A program made the position numbers and the translations under genes. From Deltaproteobacteria bacterium (GTDB lineage Bacteria; JAUYMQ01): a DNA stretch of 16,776 nt. Below are positions 12,412 to 16,676 of the stretch, piece by piece. Where the stretch lies: positions 1 to 16,776 of the forward strand of contig JAUYMQ010000438.1 in NCBI GenBank assembly GCA_030698575.1, in the 5' to 3' direction. How positions within the stretch are numbered: position 1 is the stretch's first letter; each line of letters opens with the position of its first letter. The notes below the pieces were generated by a model. The model saw only the letters and a program-made list of their open reading frames with translations, was not told the DNA's origin and ran no database searches.

Positions 12412-12804
12412 TCAAGCAGACGGCCGCGTTCCCGCGCCGCCTCTCTGGGGCTTGATCAGCTCCACGATGTTGCCGTCGGCGTCCTTCACCCAGGCCTGCG
12501 AAGCCCCCTCCCCGCCCCCGAGCACCTCGAAGCCCTTTGCAGCCAGCTCACCGGAGGCGCCCGCGACGTCCTCGACGGCGAAGGCGACGTGCCGGTGAAG
12601 GGCGTTCAGCGGCGTATCGGGCGCCGGGCCCTCGGGCAGCACGATCAGATGCACCTCGTTCCCGCCCGCCCGGTACCAGGCCCCTTCGAAGGGAAAGTCC
12701 GGCCGCGCAATCTCCTCGAGGCCGAGCACCTCGCCGTAGAAGGCCTTCGCCCGCGCCAGGTCCCGGACGCAGAGTGATGCGTGATGAATTCGCTCGAGCT
12801 TCAC
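12412..12804 (-). CDS. VOC-fold (glyoxalase/dioxygenase superfamily) metalloenzyme
   Basis: A single-unit vicinal oxygen chelate protein of about 130 aa with the two beta-alpha-beta3 modules: IHHASLCVRDLARAKAFYGE (6-25), WYRAGGNEVHLIVLP (43-57), RHVAFAVEDV (71-80) and VKDADGNIVEL (106-116). The expected metal ligands are all present (His8, His52, His72, Glu115), so it is probably active with a divalent metal; the reaction could be lyase, isomerase, epimerase or dioxygenase. I chose the GTG at 12804, which has GGAAGGAG 5 nt upstream and leaves the conserved VOC start at the N-terminus; an ATG at 12837 would add 11 residues with a poor SD. It lies 56 nt downstream of the LLM oxidoreductase on the same strand and is probably cotranscribed. 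Substrate unknown. Confidence 0.88.
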   Translation of the reverse strand: MKLERIHHASLCVRDLARAKAFYGEVLGLEEIARPDFPFEGAWYRAGGNEVHLIVLPEGPAPDTPLNALHRHVAFAVEDVAGASGELAAKGFEVLGGGEGASQAWVKDADGNIVELIKPQRGGAGTRPSA

Positions 12805-12860
12805 CTGTGCTCCTTCCTCGTTGGTTACGTCGGCCATCCCGGCCGAGCCGGGCCCGGCGC

Positions 12861-13787
12861 TCAGCCGAGTTTTCCGCCAAAAGAGGCCACGCAGGCGTAG
12901 GTTCGCGCCACCGAGGCCTGTGGGTCGTCGCCCGCGGGAAAAATGGCCGGGCCGAACTCGGTCGCGCCGGCATCCGCGAAGCGCCGCAGCGCTTCCTCGA
13001 CCTGCTTCTCGTTCCCGACGATGGCGACGTCGGCCGGGCTCGCCGCCCCCTCCCTGTCCAGCATCGCGCGGTACGAGGGGAGTCCGCCGTAGATAGCGAA
13101 GAATTTGGCTGCATTCTCGCGGGCCGCGGCCGCATCGTCGGTCACGCAGACCGGCAGAGAGCAAACGACGCGGGGGGCCGGGCGGCCCGCCGCCTTCGCG
13201 CTTGCGGTGATCCCCGGGACGATGTGCGATGCGAGCGTCTTGGGGCCCACCATCCAGGTGATCGTACCGTCCGCCAGCTCGCCCGCGATCTTCAGCATAC
13301 GTGAGCCCAGCGCCGCGACGATGATCGGAAAAGGCGTGCATCCTTCTACTTTCGCCTTGCCGTTGACCTGGTAGGTTTCACCCTGAAAGCTCACGCCACC
13401 TGTATCGCGAATGGCGCCCAGAACCGACAGATACTCCCGCATGTGACGGGCGGGCTTCTCGTAGCTGAGCCCCCACATCCCCTCGATTACAACCTGGTGG
13501 CTGAGGCCCAGCCCCAGCGCGAGTCGGCCGCCGGTGGCCGCCTGCACGGTCATCGCCTGCTGAGCGAGCGTGAAGGGGTGCCGAGGAAAGGTCGGGACGA
13601 CCGACGTGCCCAGCTCGATGCGGCTGGTCGCGCGGCCCGCGAGAGCGAGGACAGTAAGGGCATCGGGCCCGAAGACCTGTGGCGTCCAGGCCGACGCGAA
13701 GCCGTCCTTCTCCGCCTTCACGAACTTCGCGATCGTCTCGTCGAGCGGCTTGCTGTCCTCTGCGGGAATCCACAATCCGATTCGCAT
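12861..13787 (-). CDS. LLM-class (luciferase-like) F420-type oxidoreductase
   Basis: A 308-aa TIM-barrel enzyme of the bacterial luciferase-like superfamily. Recognisable parts are MRIGLWIPAE (1-10), SRIELGTSVVPTFPRHP (55-71), LAQQAMTVQAATGGR (74-88), LALGLGLSHQ (89-98) and PIIVAALGSRMLKIAGELADG. This pattern matches subfamilies annotated as F420-dependent (TIGR03564-like) better than FMN monooxygenases such as SsuD, so reduced F420 is the likely cofactor; that is inferred from the family and no F420 synthesis gene is in the window. The ATG at 13787 has GGAGG 4 nt upstream. It is divergent from the acyl-CoA dehydrogenase across a 201-bp region with a palindrome and precedes the VOC gene, suggesting joint regulation and a role in catabolism of an unusual acid or lipid. 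Confidence 0.88.
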   Translation of the reverse strand: MRIGLWIPAEDSKPLDETIAKFVKAEKDGFASAWTPQVFGPDALTVLALAGRATSRIELGTSVVPTFPRHPFTLAQQAMTVQAATGGRLALGLGLSHQVVIEGMWGLSYEKPARHMREYLSVLGAIRDTGGVSFQGETYQVNGKAKVEGCTPFPIIVAALGSRMLKIAGELADGTITWMVGPKTLASHIVPGITASAKAAGRPAPRVVCSLPVCVTDDAAAARENAAKFFAIYGGLPSYRAMLDREGAASPADVAIVGNEKQVEEALRRFADAGATEFGPAIFPAGDDPQASVARTYACVASFGGKLG

Positions 13788-13988: not shown

Positions 13989-15185
13989 ATGACACCTCTC
14001 TCGACCGCGCCGGATGCGGTCGCCGAGCTTTGCGGCCGCGTGCGCAAGTTCGTCGACGGCCGCGTCATCCCCGACGAGAAGATCCTCGACCGCGCCGACC
14101 CGGAGGCGAATGCGCTAATGAAGACGCTTCAGGGGGAGGCGAAGGCCGAGGGGCTTTGGGCCCTCAACCTACCCGTAGAGATCGGCGGCGGCGGCGTTCC
14201 CTTCATGCCCTACGTCTATGTGAACGAGATCATCGGGCGCTCGGAGCACGCGATGGCGGCCCTCGGCACGCACATCACGCAGGACAGCTGGATGCTGCAC
14301 CTCTTCGGAACGCCGGAGCAGAAGGAGCGCTGGCTTCTCCCCATGGCCCGCGGCGAGATCACCCCCAGCGTCGGCATGACCGAGCCCGAGGTGGCCGGAA
14401 GCGACCCGACCGGGATCCGCGCGACCGCGACGCTTGATGGCGACGAGTGGGTGGTGAACGCGCACAAGTGGTTCACCACCGGCGCGAACGTCGCGGCTTT
14501 CACGACGGTGATGTGCGTCACCGAGTCCGGCGCCGCGCCCCACCAGGCCGCCAGCATGATCCTGGTGCCGACGGATGCGCCGGGTTACGAGTTGGTCCGG
14601 ATCGTCCCGACCATGGGCGACACCAAGGGGCTTCACTGCGAAATCCGGCTCACCGACGTCCGGGTGCCGGTCTCGTACCTGCTCGGGAAACGCGGTCAGG
14701 GCTTTCACATCGCCCAGAAACGCCTCGGGCCGGGGCGGATCTTCCACTGCATGCGCTGGCTCGGGCAGGCCCAGCGCGCCTTCGAGCTCATGTGCAGCTA
14801 CGCGCTCGAACGAAAGGCCTTCGGCTCGCCACTGGCGCAAAAGCAGAGCGTCCAGAACTGGATCGCCGACAGCGCCGCCGAGATCCAGGCAGCGCGGCTT
14901 CTGACGCTCGATGCTGCCCGGCGCATAGACGAGGGCGACGAGGCCCGCGTGGAGATCAGCCTGATCAAGTTCTTCGGCGCCCGCGTCCTGCACGACGTGA
15001 TCGATCGCGCGATCCAGGTCCACGGCGCCCGGGGTGTATCGGGCGACACGCCCCTCGATAAGATGTATCGCCACGCGCGCTACGCGCGCATTTACGACGG
15101 CCCCGACGAGGTTCATCGCATGGTCGTCTCGCGCCGGATCCTCAAGGCCTTCGCCGTTGGTGAGGGGTGGCGGTTCAGTGGATGA
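13989..15185 (+). CDS. acyl-CoA dehydrogenase, ACAD11/LvaC-like
   Basis: A 398-aa FAD enzyme with the full fold: N-terminal helices, flavin motif SVGMTEPEVAGSD (127-139), HKWFTTGA (159-166), and a C-terminal helical domain with QVHGARGVSGDTPL (343-356). GPGRIFHCMRWLGQAQRAFE (247-266) and RIYDGPDEVHR (367-377) are close to human ACAD11. The residue aligned with the MCAD catalytic Glu is Asp370, as in ACAD11. In this subfamily the enzyme works with an APH-type kinase on hydroxyacyl-CoAs: the hydroxyl is phosphorylated and lost while the acyl chain becomes an enoyl-CoA. AAGGAG lies 6 nt before the ATG at 13989; the open frame extends upstream through the palindrome and the divergent gene and is not used. 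The kinase gene follows without a gap. Family certain, subfamily likely, substrate inferred. Confidence 0.95.
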   Translation: MTPLSTAPDAVAELCGRVRKFVDGRVIPDEKILDRADPEANALMKTLQGEAKAEGLWALNLPVEIGGGGVPFMPYVYVNEIIGRSEHAMAALGTHITQDSWMLHLFGTPEQKERWLLPMARGEITPSVGMTEPEVAGSDPTGIRATATLDGDEWVVNAHKWFTTGANVAAFTTVMCVTESGAAPHQAASMILVPTDAPGYELVRIVPTMGDTKGLHCEIRLTDVRVPVSYLLGKRGQGFHIAQKRLGPGRIFHCMRWLGQAQRAFELMCSYALERKAFGSPLAQKQSVQNWIADSAAEIQAARLLTLDAARRIDEGDEARVEISLIKFFGARVLHDVIDRAIQVHGARGVSGDTPLDKMYRHARYARIYDGPDEVHRMVVSRRILKAFAVGEGWRFSG

Positions 15186-15192
15186 AGCGGTG

Positions 15193-16221
15193 ATGAACGC
15201 CTCGCAGGAAGAGCTAATCGTCGAAAGCGCCCGCGCCGGCCTGCGCGAGAAGGCCCCCGGCGCACGGGTCGACGTTCAGGGGCTGCGCCGCCTGACGGGC
15301 GGTTCGGTTCGCGAGATCTGGGGCTTCGACGCGGTTCTGGCGCGGGATGGCGAACCGCCGGAACGGCGGCCGCTGGTCTTTCTTCTCTTCCGCGCGCGGG
15401 GGCCCGAGGGGAAACTTTCGCCGGAACAGGAGTTCAGGCTTCTCGAGATCGCCAGCGCGGCAGGGGTTCCTGTCCCCCAGCCGGTGTGGCAGGGAAAGAC
15501 CGCGGCAGGGGAACCCTTCTACGTGATGGCGCGCGTCGAGGGCGAGACGATCGGGAGCCGGATCCTGCGCGACGACCGGCTGGCCCGCGCGCGCGCCGCC
15601 CTCCCCGCCCAGGTGGCTGCCGCGGCTGCGGCGATCCATCGCGTTCCCCTCGGCCCCGAGCTCGATTTTCTCGAAGGACCCCCGGCCGACCGCGCCCCCG
15701 CCGACTGGGAGATCGCCCGCATCGAGGATCTCTACCGGCTGGTCACGCCGGATCCCCACCCCGTTTTCGAGCTGGCCCTTCGCTGGCTGCGCCAGCATCT
15801 ACCGCCGGGCACGTCCCGGGCGCTCGTGCACGGCGACTTCCGGATTGGAAACGTGATCGTGGATGAGACGGGACTGCGCGCGGTGCTCGACTGGGAACTG
15901 GCCCACATCGGCGATCCGATGGAGGATCTCGGCTGGTTCTGCGTGCGATCCTGGCGCTTTCGCGCGGATCACCTGCCGGCGGGAGGCGTGGGCAGTCGCG
16001 AGTCGCTGCTCGACGCATACGCCAAAGCCGGGGGAGGAGCCGCCGATCCCGCGCGCCTCCGCTTCTGGGAGATCTTCGGCAACCTCCGCTGGGGCGTTCT
16101 CACTCTCGTCCAGGCGCGATTCTTCCTGGGCGGGGCGAGCACGAGCGTGGAGCTGGCGAGCATCGGCCGGCGCACAGCGGAAACCGAGTGGGAACTCCTC
16201 AACCTGCTGGAGAGTGCGTGA
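15193..16221 (+). CDS. APH-fold phosphotransferase, putative hydroxyacyl-CoA kinase (LvaA / ACAD11 kinase-domain-like)
   Basis: About 342 aa with the aminoglycoside/choline kinase fold. The nucleotide loop is near LRRLTGGSVREIWGFD (31-46), the beta3 segment is LVFLLFRARG (61-70), and the catalytic loop is ALVHGDFRIGNVIVD (210-224) with Asp215 and Asn220. The metal-binding motif is AVLDWELAHIGDPMEDLGW (230-248) with Asp233. All key C-lobe residues are present, so an active kinase is expected. Antibiotic resistance is unlikely: this is the type fused to ACAD in mammalian ACAD10/11 and paired with it in LvaA/LvaC. The ATG at 15193 is 7 nt past the dehydrogenase stop; GTG 15178, overlapping that stop with GGTGG 7 nt upstream, is a good alternative. 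Its stop overlaps the next ATG by one base. Confidence 0.9.
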   Translation: MNASQEELIVESARAGLREKAPGARVDVQGLRRLTGGSVREIWGFDAVLARDGEPPERRPLVFLLFRARGPEGKLSPEQEFRLLEIASAAGVPVPQPVWQGKTAAGEPFYVMARVEGETIGSRILRDDRLARARAALPAQVAAAAAAIHRVPLGPELDFLEGPPADRAPADWEIARIEDLYRLVTPDPHPVFELALRWLRQHLPPGTSRALVHGDFRIGNVIVDETGLRAVLDWELAHIGDPMEDLGWFCVRSWRFRADHLPAGGVGSRESLLDAYAKAGGGAADPARLRFWEIFGNLRWGVLTLVQARFFLGGASTSVELASIGRRTAETEWELLNLLESA

Positions 16222-16676
16222 TGCAGGACCGGCCGACCCGTCACGAGCTGCTTGACGCCGTGCTGCGTTTCATCGAGGAGGAGCTGGTGCCCGATCTCGA
16301 GGGAAGGCTGAAGTTCCTCGCCCGCGTATCGGCGAACGTTCTGCGCATCGTCGATCGCGAGATCGAGAACGAGTCGGCGCATCTTGCCCGGGAGTGGGCG
16401 GGGCTCGACGGCCTCCTGGGTCCGGAGGCAATGCCGGCCGATCCCGCCGCGGCCCGGGAAGCCGTCACGCGGCGATCCGGGGCGCTCTGCGATCGAATCC
16501 GGACCGGCGAGGCCGACGCGGGACCGTTCAGGGAAGCAGTCATGGGACATCTGCGCGAAACGATTCGCGAAAAAGTATCGGTCTCGGACCCGGGGATCCT
16601 CGAGCGGGACGAGGGAGGCATGCAGAGCCCGTCGCCACCCTCCCGGCCGGGGCGGGCAGGCAATCGGGACGAATGA
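16221..16676 (+). CDS. small DUF6285-like protein, putative kinase partner (LvaB-like)
   Basis: A 151-aa soluble protein whose ATG overlaps the stop of the kinase gene (TGATG), so translation is coupled. The N-terminal half QDRPTRHELLDAVLRFIEEE (2-21), LVPDLEGRLKFLARVSANVL (22-41) and RIVDREIENE matches the pattern I recall for DUF6285, a family found beside APH kinases and acyl-CoA dehydrogenases. It is helical, with no signal peptide, membrane segment or catalytic motif. In the Pseudomonas levulinate pathway a small protein, LvaB, is needed with LvaA for 4-hydroxyacyl-CoA phosphorylation; I infer the same supporting role here from position and size. The last 25 or so residues (after ILERDE) are Pro/Ser/Gly-rich and look like a non-conserved tail. 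Confidence 0.82.
   Translation: MQDRPTRHELLDAVLRFIEEELVPDLEGRLKFLARVSANVLRIVDREIENESAHLAREWAGLDGLLGPEAMPADPAAAREAVTRRSGALCDRIRTGEADAGPFREAVMGHLRETIREKVSVSDPGILERDEGGMQSPSPPSRPGRAGNRDE

Follow-up and report, generated by a model that had tools for sequence, protein, structure and literature searches.

Which reaction might be catalyzed by an acyl-CoA dehydrogenase (ACAD), an APH-fold kinase and a DUF6285 protein that are encoded side by side at the end of a deltaproteobacterial contig? In the window (the whole 16,776-nt stretch of DNA that was analyzed), the three genes are tightly packed on the plus strand, and the contig ends 100 bases past the stop codon of the last of them, the DUF6285 gene (Table 1). 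In agreement with the initial annotation, which described a triad of genes 7 nt apart or overlapping, the ACAD and kinase are separate ORFs with a 7-nt gap after the ACAD stop codon, and the kinase and DUF6285 ORFs overlap by 1 nt (TGATG). No terminator-like sites were found between the three genes. All three proteins score above the curated Pfam cut-offs (Acyl-CoA_dh, 2.4e-47; APH, 8.9e-35; DUF6285, 7.1e-22). The order ACAD–kinase–DUF6285 is seen again in Thermus, Candidatus Binatia and Alphaproteobacteria, a recurrence which argues that the arrangement is not due to chance.

Table 1 Locations of the cassette, its motifs and the related features (L numbers denote other loci)
Feature	Locus	Coordinates	Strand	Basis
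Three-gene cassette	Window	13989..16676	+	
ACAD10/11/LvaC-type acyl-CoA dehydrogenase, 398 aa, predicted phosphoacyl-CoA phosphate-eliminating	Window	13989..15185	+	Pfam, PDB match, tree
Phosphate-binding motif RLGPGRIFHCMR in ACAD (R245, R250, H253, R256)	Window	14721..14756	+	Alignment to mouse ACAD11
Catalytic Asp370 in ACAD motif DGPDEVHR	Window	15096..15098	+	Alignment to mouse ACAD11
LvaA-type APH-fold kinase, 342 aa, predicted hydroxyacyl-CoA kinase	Window	15193..16221	+	Pfam APH, tree
Kinase catalytic loop HGDFRIGN (D215, N220) and metal-binding DWE (D233)	Window	15829..15897	+	ACAD11 alignment
DUF6285/LvaB-family protein, 151 aa, predicted kinase partner subunit, all-helical	Window	16221..16676	+	PF19802, AlphaFold2 model
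Second host cassette, order kinase–DUF6285–ACAD	L017 (contig C278)	8101-10784	−	ACAD of ACAD10/11 group, kinase LvaA-type
Third LvaA-like host kinase and downstream 165-aa ORF	L018 (contig C102)	297-1882	−	
Histidine phosphatase next to DUF6285	L022	6345-6986		
Histidine phosphatase next to DUF6285	L027	6345-6998		
Histidine phosphatase next to DUF6285	L032	8352-9113		
Histidine phosphatase next to DUF6285	L034	8385-9062		
Histidine phosphatase next to DUF6285	L036	8373-8696		

The ACAD carries the motifs RLGPGRIFHCMRWLG and RIYDGPDEVHR, and its closest sequence match in the PDB is mouse ACAD11 (8v3u, 5.9e-75). In the alignment of the two proteins, residues R245, R250, H253 and R256 correspond to R626, R631, H634 and R637 of ACAD11, and the equivalent of ACAD11 H597 is also kept. 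Asp370 aligns with D753 of ACAD11 and takes the position of MCAD Glu376, which is Glu in ordinary ACADs; this bears out the earlier observation of an Asp in place of the MCAD Glu in RIYDGPDEVHR. By comparison, the ordinary ACADs of the host genome have Glu at the catalytic position and 0/3 of the R/H/R residues. Mutation of the catalytic Asp of ACAD11 abolishes its ACAD activity. In the same enzyme, R626, H634 and R637 grip the 4-phosphate, D753 is the base, and phosphate elimination is abolished most strongly in the R626, H634 or R637 mutants (PMC12440821).

In a maximum-likelihood tree, the HCMR-type ACADs, including the window protein, form a single clade (100/100) with three main groups: LvaC, ACAD10/11 and a 27-row group that contains the window protein (100/100). 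The window ACAD thus belongs to a third clade beside the LvaC and ACAD10/11 groups, one that is sister to, or near, ACAD10/11; a quick tree agrees on this placement. Grouping with ordinary short/medium-chain ACADs, which the initial annotation named as evidence against its reading, was not observed in the tree, where the protein instead groups with ACAD10/11 and LvaC. Members of its group are 58–71% identical and come from at least six phyla, and all 80 of the 80 loci with a window-type ACAD keep both the HCMR motif and the DGP motif at the catalytic Asp. A literature search found no enzyme of this clade with a reported assay.

The catalytic residues of the kinase are also intact. Alignment to ACAD11 confirms the previously noted HGDFRIGN and DWE motifs, with D215, N220 and DWE matching D220, N225 and the DWE motif of ACAD11. 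In two kinase trees, the protein falls into the LvaA-type clade (SH-aLRT 97 and 99), from which the mouse and Burkholderia ACAD11-type kinases are separate. The closest named relative of the window kinase is from Candidatus Binatia. The cassette is therefore more than the "unfused ACAD10/11" system of the initial annotation: its kinase is of LvaA type, and its ACAD belongs to the third clade. Another kinase that groups with Candidatus Binatia stems from a record titled as a Klebsiella pneumoniae MAG (L040), and this title is probably a misnomer.

The third protein belongs to DUF6285 (PF19802, 7.1e-22; 78.3 bits versus a cut-off of 28.1). A complete lva-type operon on the Pseudomonas aeruginosa plasmid p12939-PER includes a gene annotated lvaB, the product of which matches the same family at 4.8e-24, and in the corresponding Stutzerimonas operon the lvaB position is annotated as DUF6285 and is followed by a histidine phosphatase. 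On this profile evidence, LvaB is a member of the DUF6285 family, and the suggested profile comparison of the third protein with DUF6285 and LvaB gives a positive result. LvaB binds LvaA and is required for growth on levulinate (PMC6692424). The AlphaFold2 model of the window protein is all-helical (pLDDT 91.7). A fold search with this model gave no PDB match at E ≤ 0.001, and its VIA-align matches span about 50 residues with Z up to 6.3, which is typical of helical hairpins and hence uninformative. A literature search found no paper that uses the name DUF6285; NCBI names one member LvaB. In Thermus, Stutzerimonas, Azoarcus and Azospirillum, DUF6285 is followed by a gene for a histidine phosphatase. 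Such a gene is also part of the lva cluster of P. citronellolis, which reportedly lacks lvaB (PMC6692424); the numbering of the locus tags there would accommodate a DUF6285 gene that was missed.

Genome comparisons tie DUF6285 to the kinase as its predicted partner subunit. Among the 43 kinases of the LvaA-type clade in the tree, 42 have DUF6285 at the same locus, and the remaining one (L084) is a kinase–DUF6285 fusion whose DUF6285 part is cut off by the end of the contig. Because many of the 80 window-type ACAD loci have no kinase within 7 kb, whole genomes were searched for DUF6285. The family is present in 39/47 genomes with a window-type ACAD (33/41 after omitting six genomes picked for DUF6285 adjoining the ACAD) versus 2/98 bacteria unrelated to the host, and the association thus extends to ACADs that stand alone. 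The Fisher p value is 6e-25 for 39/47 versus 2/98, uncorrected for relatedness, and even a value of about 1e-22 overstates the evidence; the genomes are not independent, many being Acidobacteriota or Acidimicrobiia, but the signal spans phyla. The kinase and DUF6285 are fused as a single ORF in 20 loci, with the kinase first; starred branches of the kinase tree force at least two fused/split changes, and the predicted structure of one natural fusion protein reaches a pTM of 0.88. Cupriavidus, Variovorax and Sulfitobacter loci, in which an LvaA-type kinase and DUF6285 lie beside ordinary ACADs, were considered as exceptions and rejected, as HCMR-encoding sites occur elsewhere in the same records.

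A possible role for this partner emerges from the kinase alignment. For the ACAD11 kinase, simulation led to the proposal that R176 and an Arg adjoining the alpha-C glutamate touch CoA (PMC12440821); this second Arg is residue 84 in the alignment and is printed as R86 in that paper, so the match is probable rather than certain. Both arginines are present in 9/9 aligned kinases outside the LvaA-type clade, as well as in a distant tenth row (L079). Of the 73 LvaA-type kinases compared, counting the fusions, none (0/73) has the two together. Alignment between the kinase clades is poor around R176, which makes this the weaker of the two columns; the window kinase lacks at least one, and probably both, of these residues. 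Substrate recognition could accordingly differ from that of ACAD11. In DUF6285, R46 is invariant in 13/13 diverse members, LvaB included. Since the two arginines never co-occur in DUF6285-linked kinases, these patterns suggest a possible role of DUF6285 in completing the CoA site of LvaA-type kinases. An extended form of this model is put forward tentatively: DUF6285/LvaB would be an obligate substrate-recognition subunit, repeatedly fused to the kinase, that supplies the CoA site lost by LvaA-type kinases, with its own R46 replacing the two ACAD10/11-type arginines, and the window-type ACADs would constitute a third branch of 4-hydroxyacyl-CoA catabolism, spread over several phyla and acting on substrates of its own.

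Taken together, the cassette is assigned, with a probability of roughly 0.8, to a two-step pathway of hydroxyacyl-CoA dehydroxylation via phosphorylation. Gene content, gene order, conserved residues, phylogeny, genome-wide co-occurrence and natural kinase–DUF6285 fusions are observed directly here, and the chemistry is carried over by analogy from the literature on LvaABC and ACAD10/11, from which we infer that the cassette would act likewise on some hydroxyacyl-CoA. The kinase and DUF6285 protein would phosphorylate the substrate hydroxyl, most likely at C4, in an ATP-dependent reaction. Asp370 of the ACAD would then take the C2 proton as the C3 hydride goes to FAD, and R245, H253 and R256 would hold the phosphate as it departs from C4. 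Return of the hydride from FAD would leave the overall reaction redox-neutral and deliver a 2-enoyl-CoA to beta-oxidation. The core of the initial annotation, an unfused kinase, atypical ACAD and LvaB-type protein for phosphate-dependent hydroxyacyl-CoA dehydroxylation, is thus supported by residues and trees. As judged from sequence, the cassette is real and appears functional, with a strong case for the type of chemistry rather than for a particular substrate. Near related ACADs, a CoA ligase lies within three genes in five loci and enoyl-CoA hydratase genes are found; sodium:solute symporter genes adjoin DUF6285 in Streptosporangiales. These neighbors are what would be expected if a carboxylic acid were taken up and degraded by beta-oxidation.

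The same two-step chemistry could act on a hydroxyl located elsewhere than on C4 of a linear chain, as in a branched, cyclic or steroid-derived hydroxyacyl-CoA. The separate clade of the window ACAD, the differing neighbor genes between lineages and the top fold match of the kinase domain, to the 25-hydroxysteroid kinase (9fsg), are consistent with such a substrate, which is nevertheless considered unlikely: the kinase sequence is nearer to 3dxp (3.2e-18) and ACAD11 (1.9e-13) than to the 25-hydroxysteroid kinase (3.8e-9), and the active site of the ACAD has the same residues as the 4-phosphoacyl-CoA enzymes. Far less probable is a reverse or regulatory role, for example one in which the kinase and DUF6285 buffer a phosphoacyl-CoA pool and the ACAD scavenges; the title of one report (PMC8449060) calls the related 25-hydroxysteroid kinase fully reversible and histidine phosphatase genes adjoin DUF6285 in several lineages, but the catabolic direction is the one published for LvaABC and ACAD10/11. 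Chance proximity of an ordinary beta-oxidation ACAD and an antibiotic-type phosphotransferase, to which the generic Pfam domains (ACAD, APH) might point, is the least credible explanation and is largely refuted by the Asp-for-Glu replacement, the R/H/R motif, the tree placement and the recurrent linkage.

The dehydroxylation cassette can be compared with several known systems. It shares with the lva operon, which breaks down levulinate and 4-hydroxyvalerate, an LvaA-type kinase, a DUF6285 protein (LvaB), an ACAD with the HCMR motif and catalytic Asp, and a compact layout; identity to LvaC, LvaA and LvaB of p12939-PER is only 38, 37 and 29%, respectively. In contrast to that operon, the order is ACAD–kinase–DUF6285 and the ACAD lies outside the LvaC clade. 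No LvaR, LvaD, LvaE, LvaF or LvaG was recognized upstream in the window. The argument that the lack of a nearby LvaE or LvaD points to lipid peroxidation or beta-oxidation as the source of the substrate does not hold, as the contig stops 100 bases after DUF6285, precluding the inference of an endogenous substrate, and related loci carry a CoA ligase. Mammalian ACAD10 and ACAD11 have the same ACAD and kinase catalytic residues and a sister or nearby ACAD clade. Unlike in those enzymes, the window kinase and ACAD are separate polypeptides, and the kinase is LvaA-type, without the R176 and alpha-C-adjacent Arg of ACAD11; mouse ACAD11, in turn, has no DUF6285 partner. The Thermus and Azospirillum cassettes agree with that of the window in gene content and order, but their ACADs lie toward LvaC in the tree and a histidine phosphatase is added. 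The 25-hydroxysteroid kinase of Sterolibacterium denitrificans is a related APH-fold enzyme that forms a phosphate ester before elimination; its substrate, however, is a steroid alcohol rather than an acyl-CoA, and its resemblance to the window kinase is one of fold only.

Upstream of the cassette and divergent from it, the minus strand encodes a VOC-family protein and a TIGR03564 F420-dependent luciferase-like oxidoreductase (12412-13787). A VOC and luciferase-like pair of different subfamilies is found at the same place in two related loci (L040 and L042), and Acidimicrobiia have a luciferase-like gene at the corresponding position; the recurrence of the pair near related cassettes may be a coincidence.

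The host encodes four HCMR-type ACADs, and so these paralogues may have diverged to other substrates. In a second host cassette, an ACAD10/11-type ACAD is paired with an LvaA-type kinase, a combination that demonstrates module exchange. Beside a third LvaA-like kinase, the N-terminus of the downstream ORF resembles DUF6285 (RPDVSDILSGIQRTLMEEILPDLA), but the ORF has no family hit and no relationship to DUF6285 was detectable by hhalign (probability 3%). A lone HCMR-type ACAD on the short contig C605 (L002, 1309-2532) is 49% identical to the window ACAD, and no kinase is present on that contig.

Phosphorylation-dependent removal of fatty-acid hydroxyls has been shown for Pseudomonas LvaABC and mammalian ACAD10/11. 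The cassette described here, a little-known relative of the human ACAD10 and ACAD11 enzymes, very probably encodes such a pathway, and it marks a third ACAD branch across Acidobacteriota, Myxococcota, Actinomycetota, Chloroflexota, Binatota and Pseudomonadota. DUF6285, a domain of unknown function, becomes a testable kinase subunit, for which natural kinase–DUF6285 fusions, such as the Streptomyces NBC_01016 protein, are ready for crystallography and mutagenesis. For the host itself, the use of more than one hydroxyacyl-CoA is probable.
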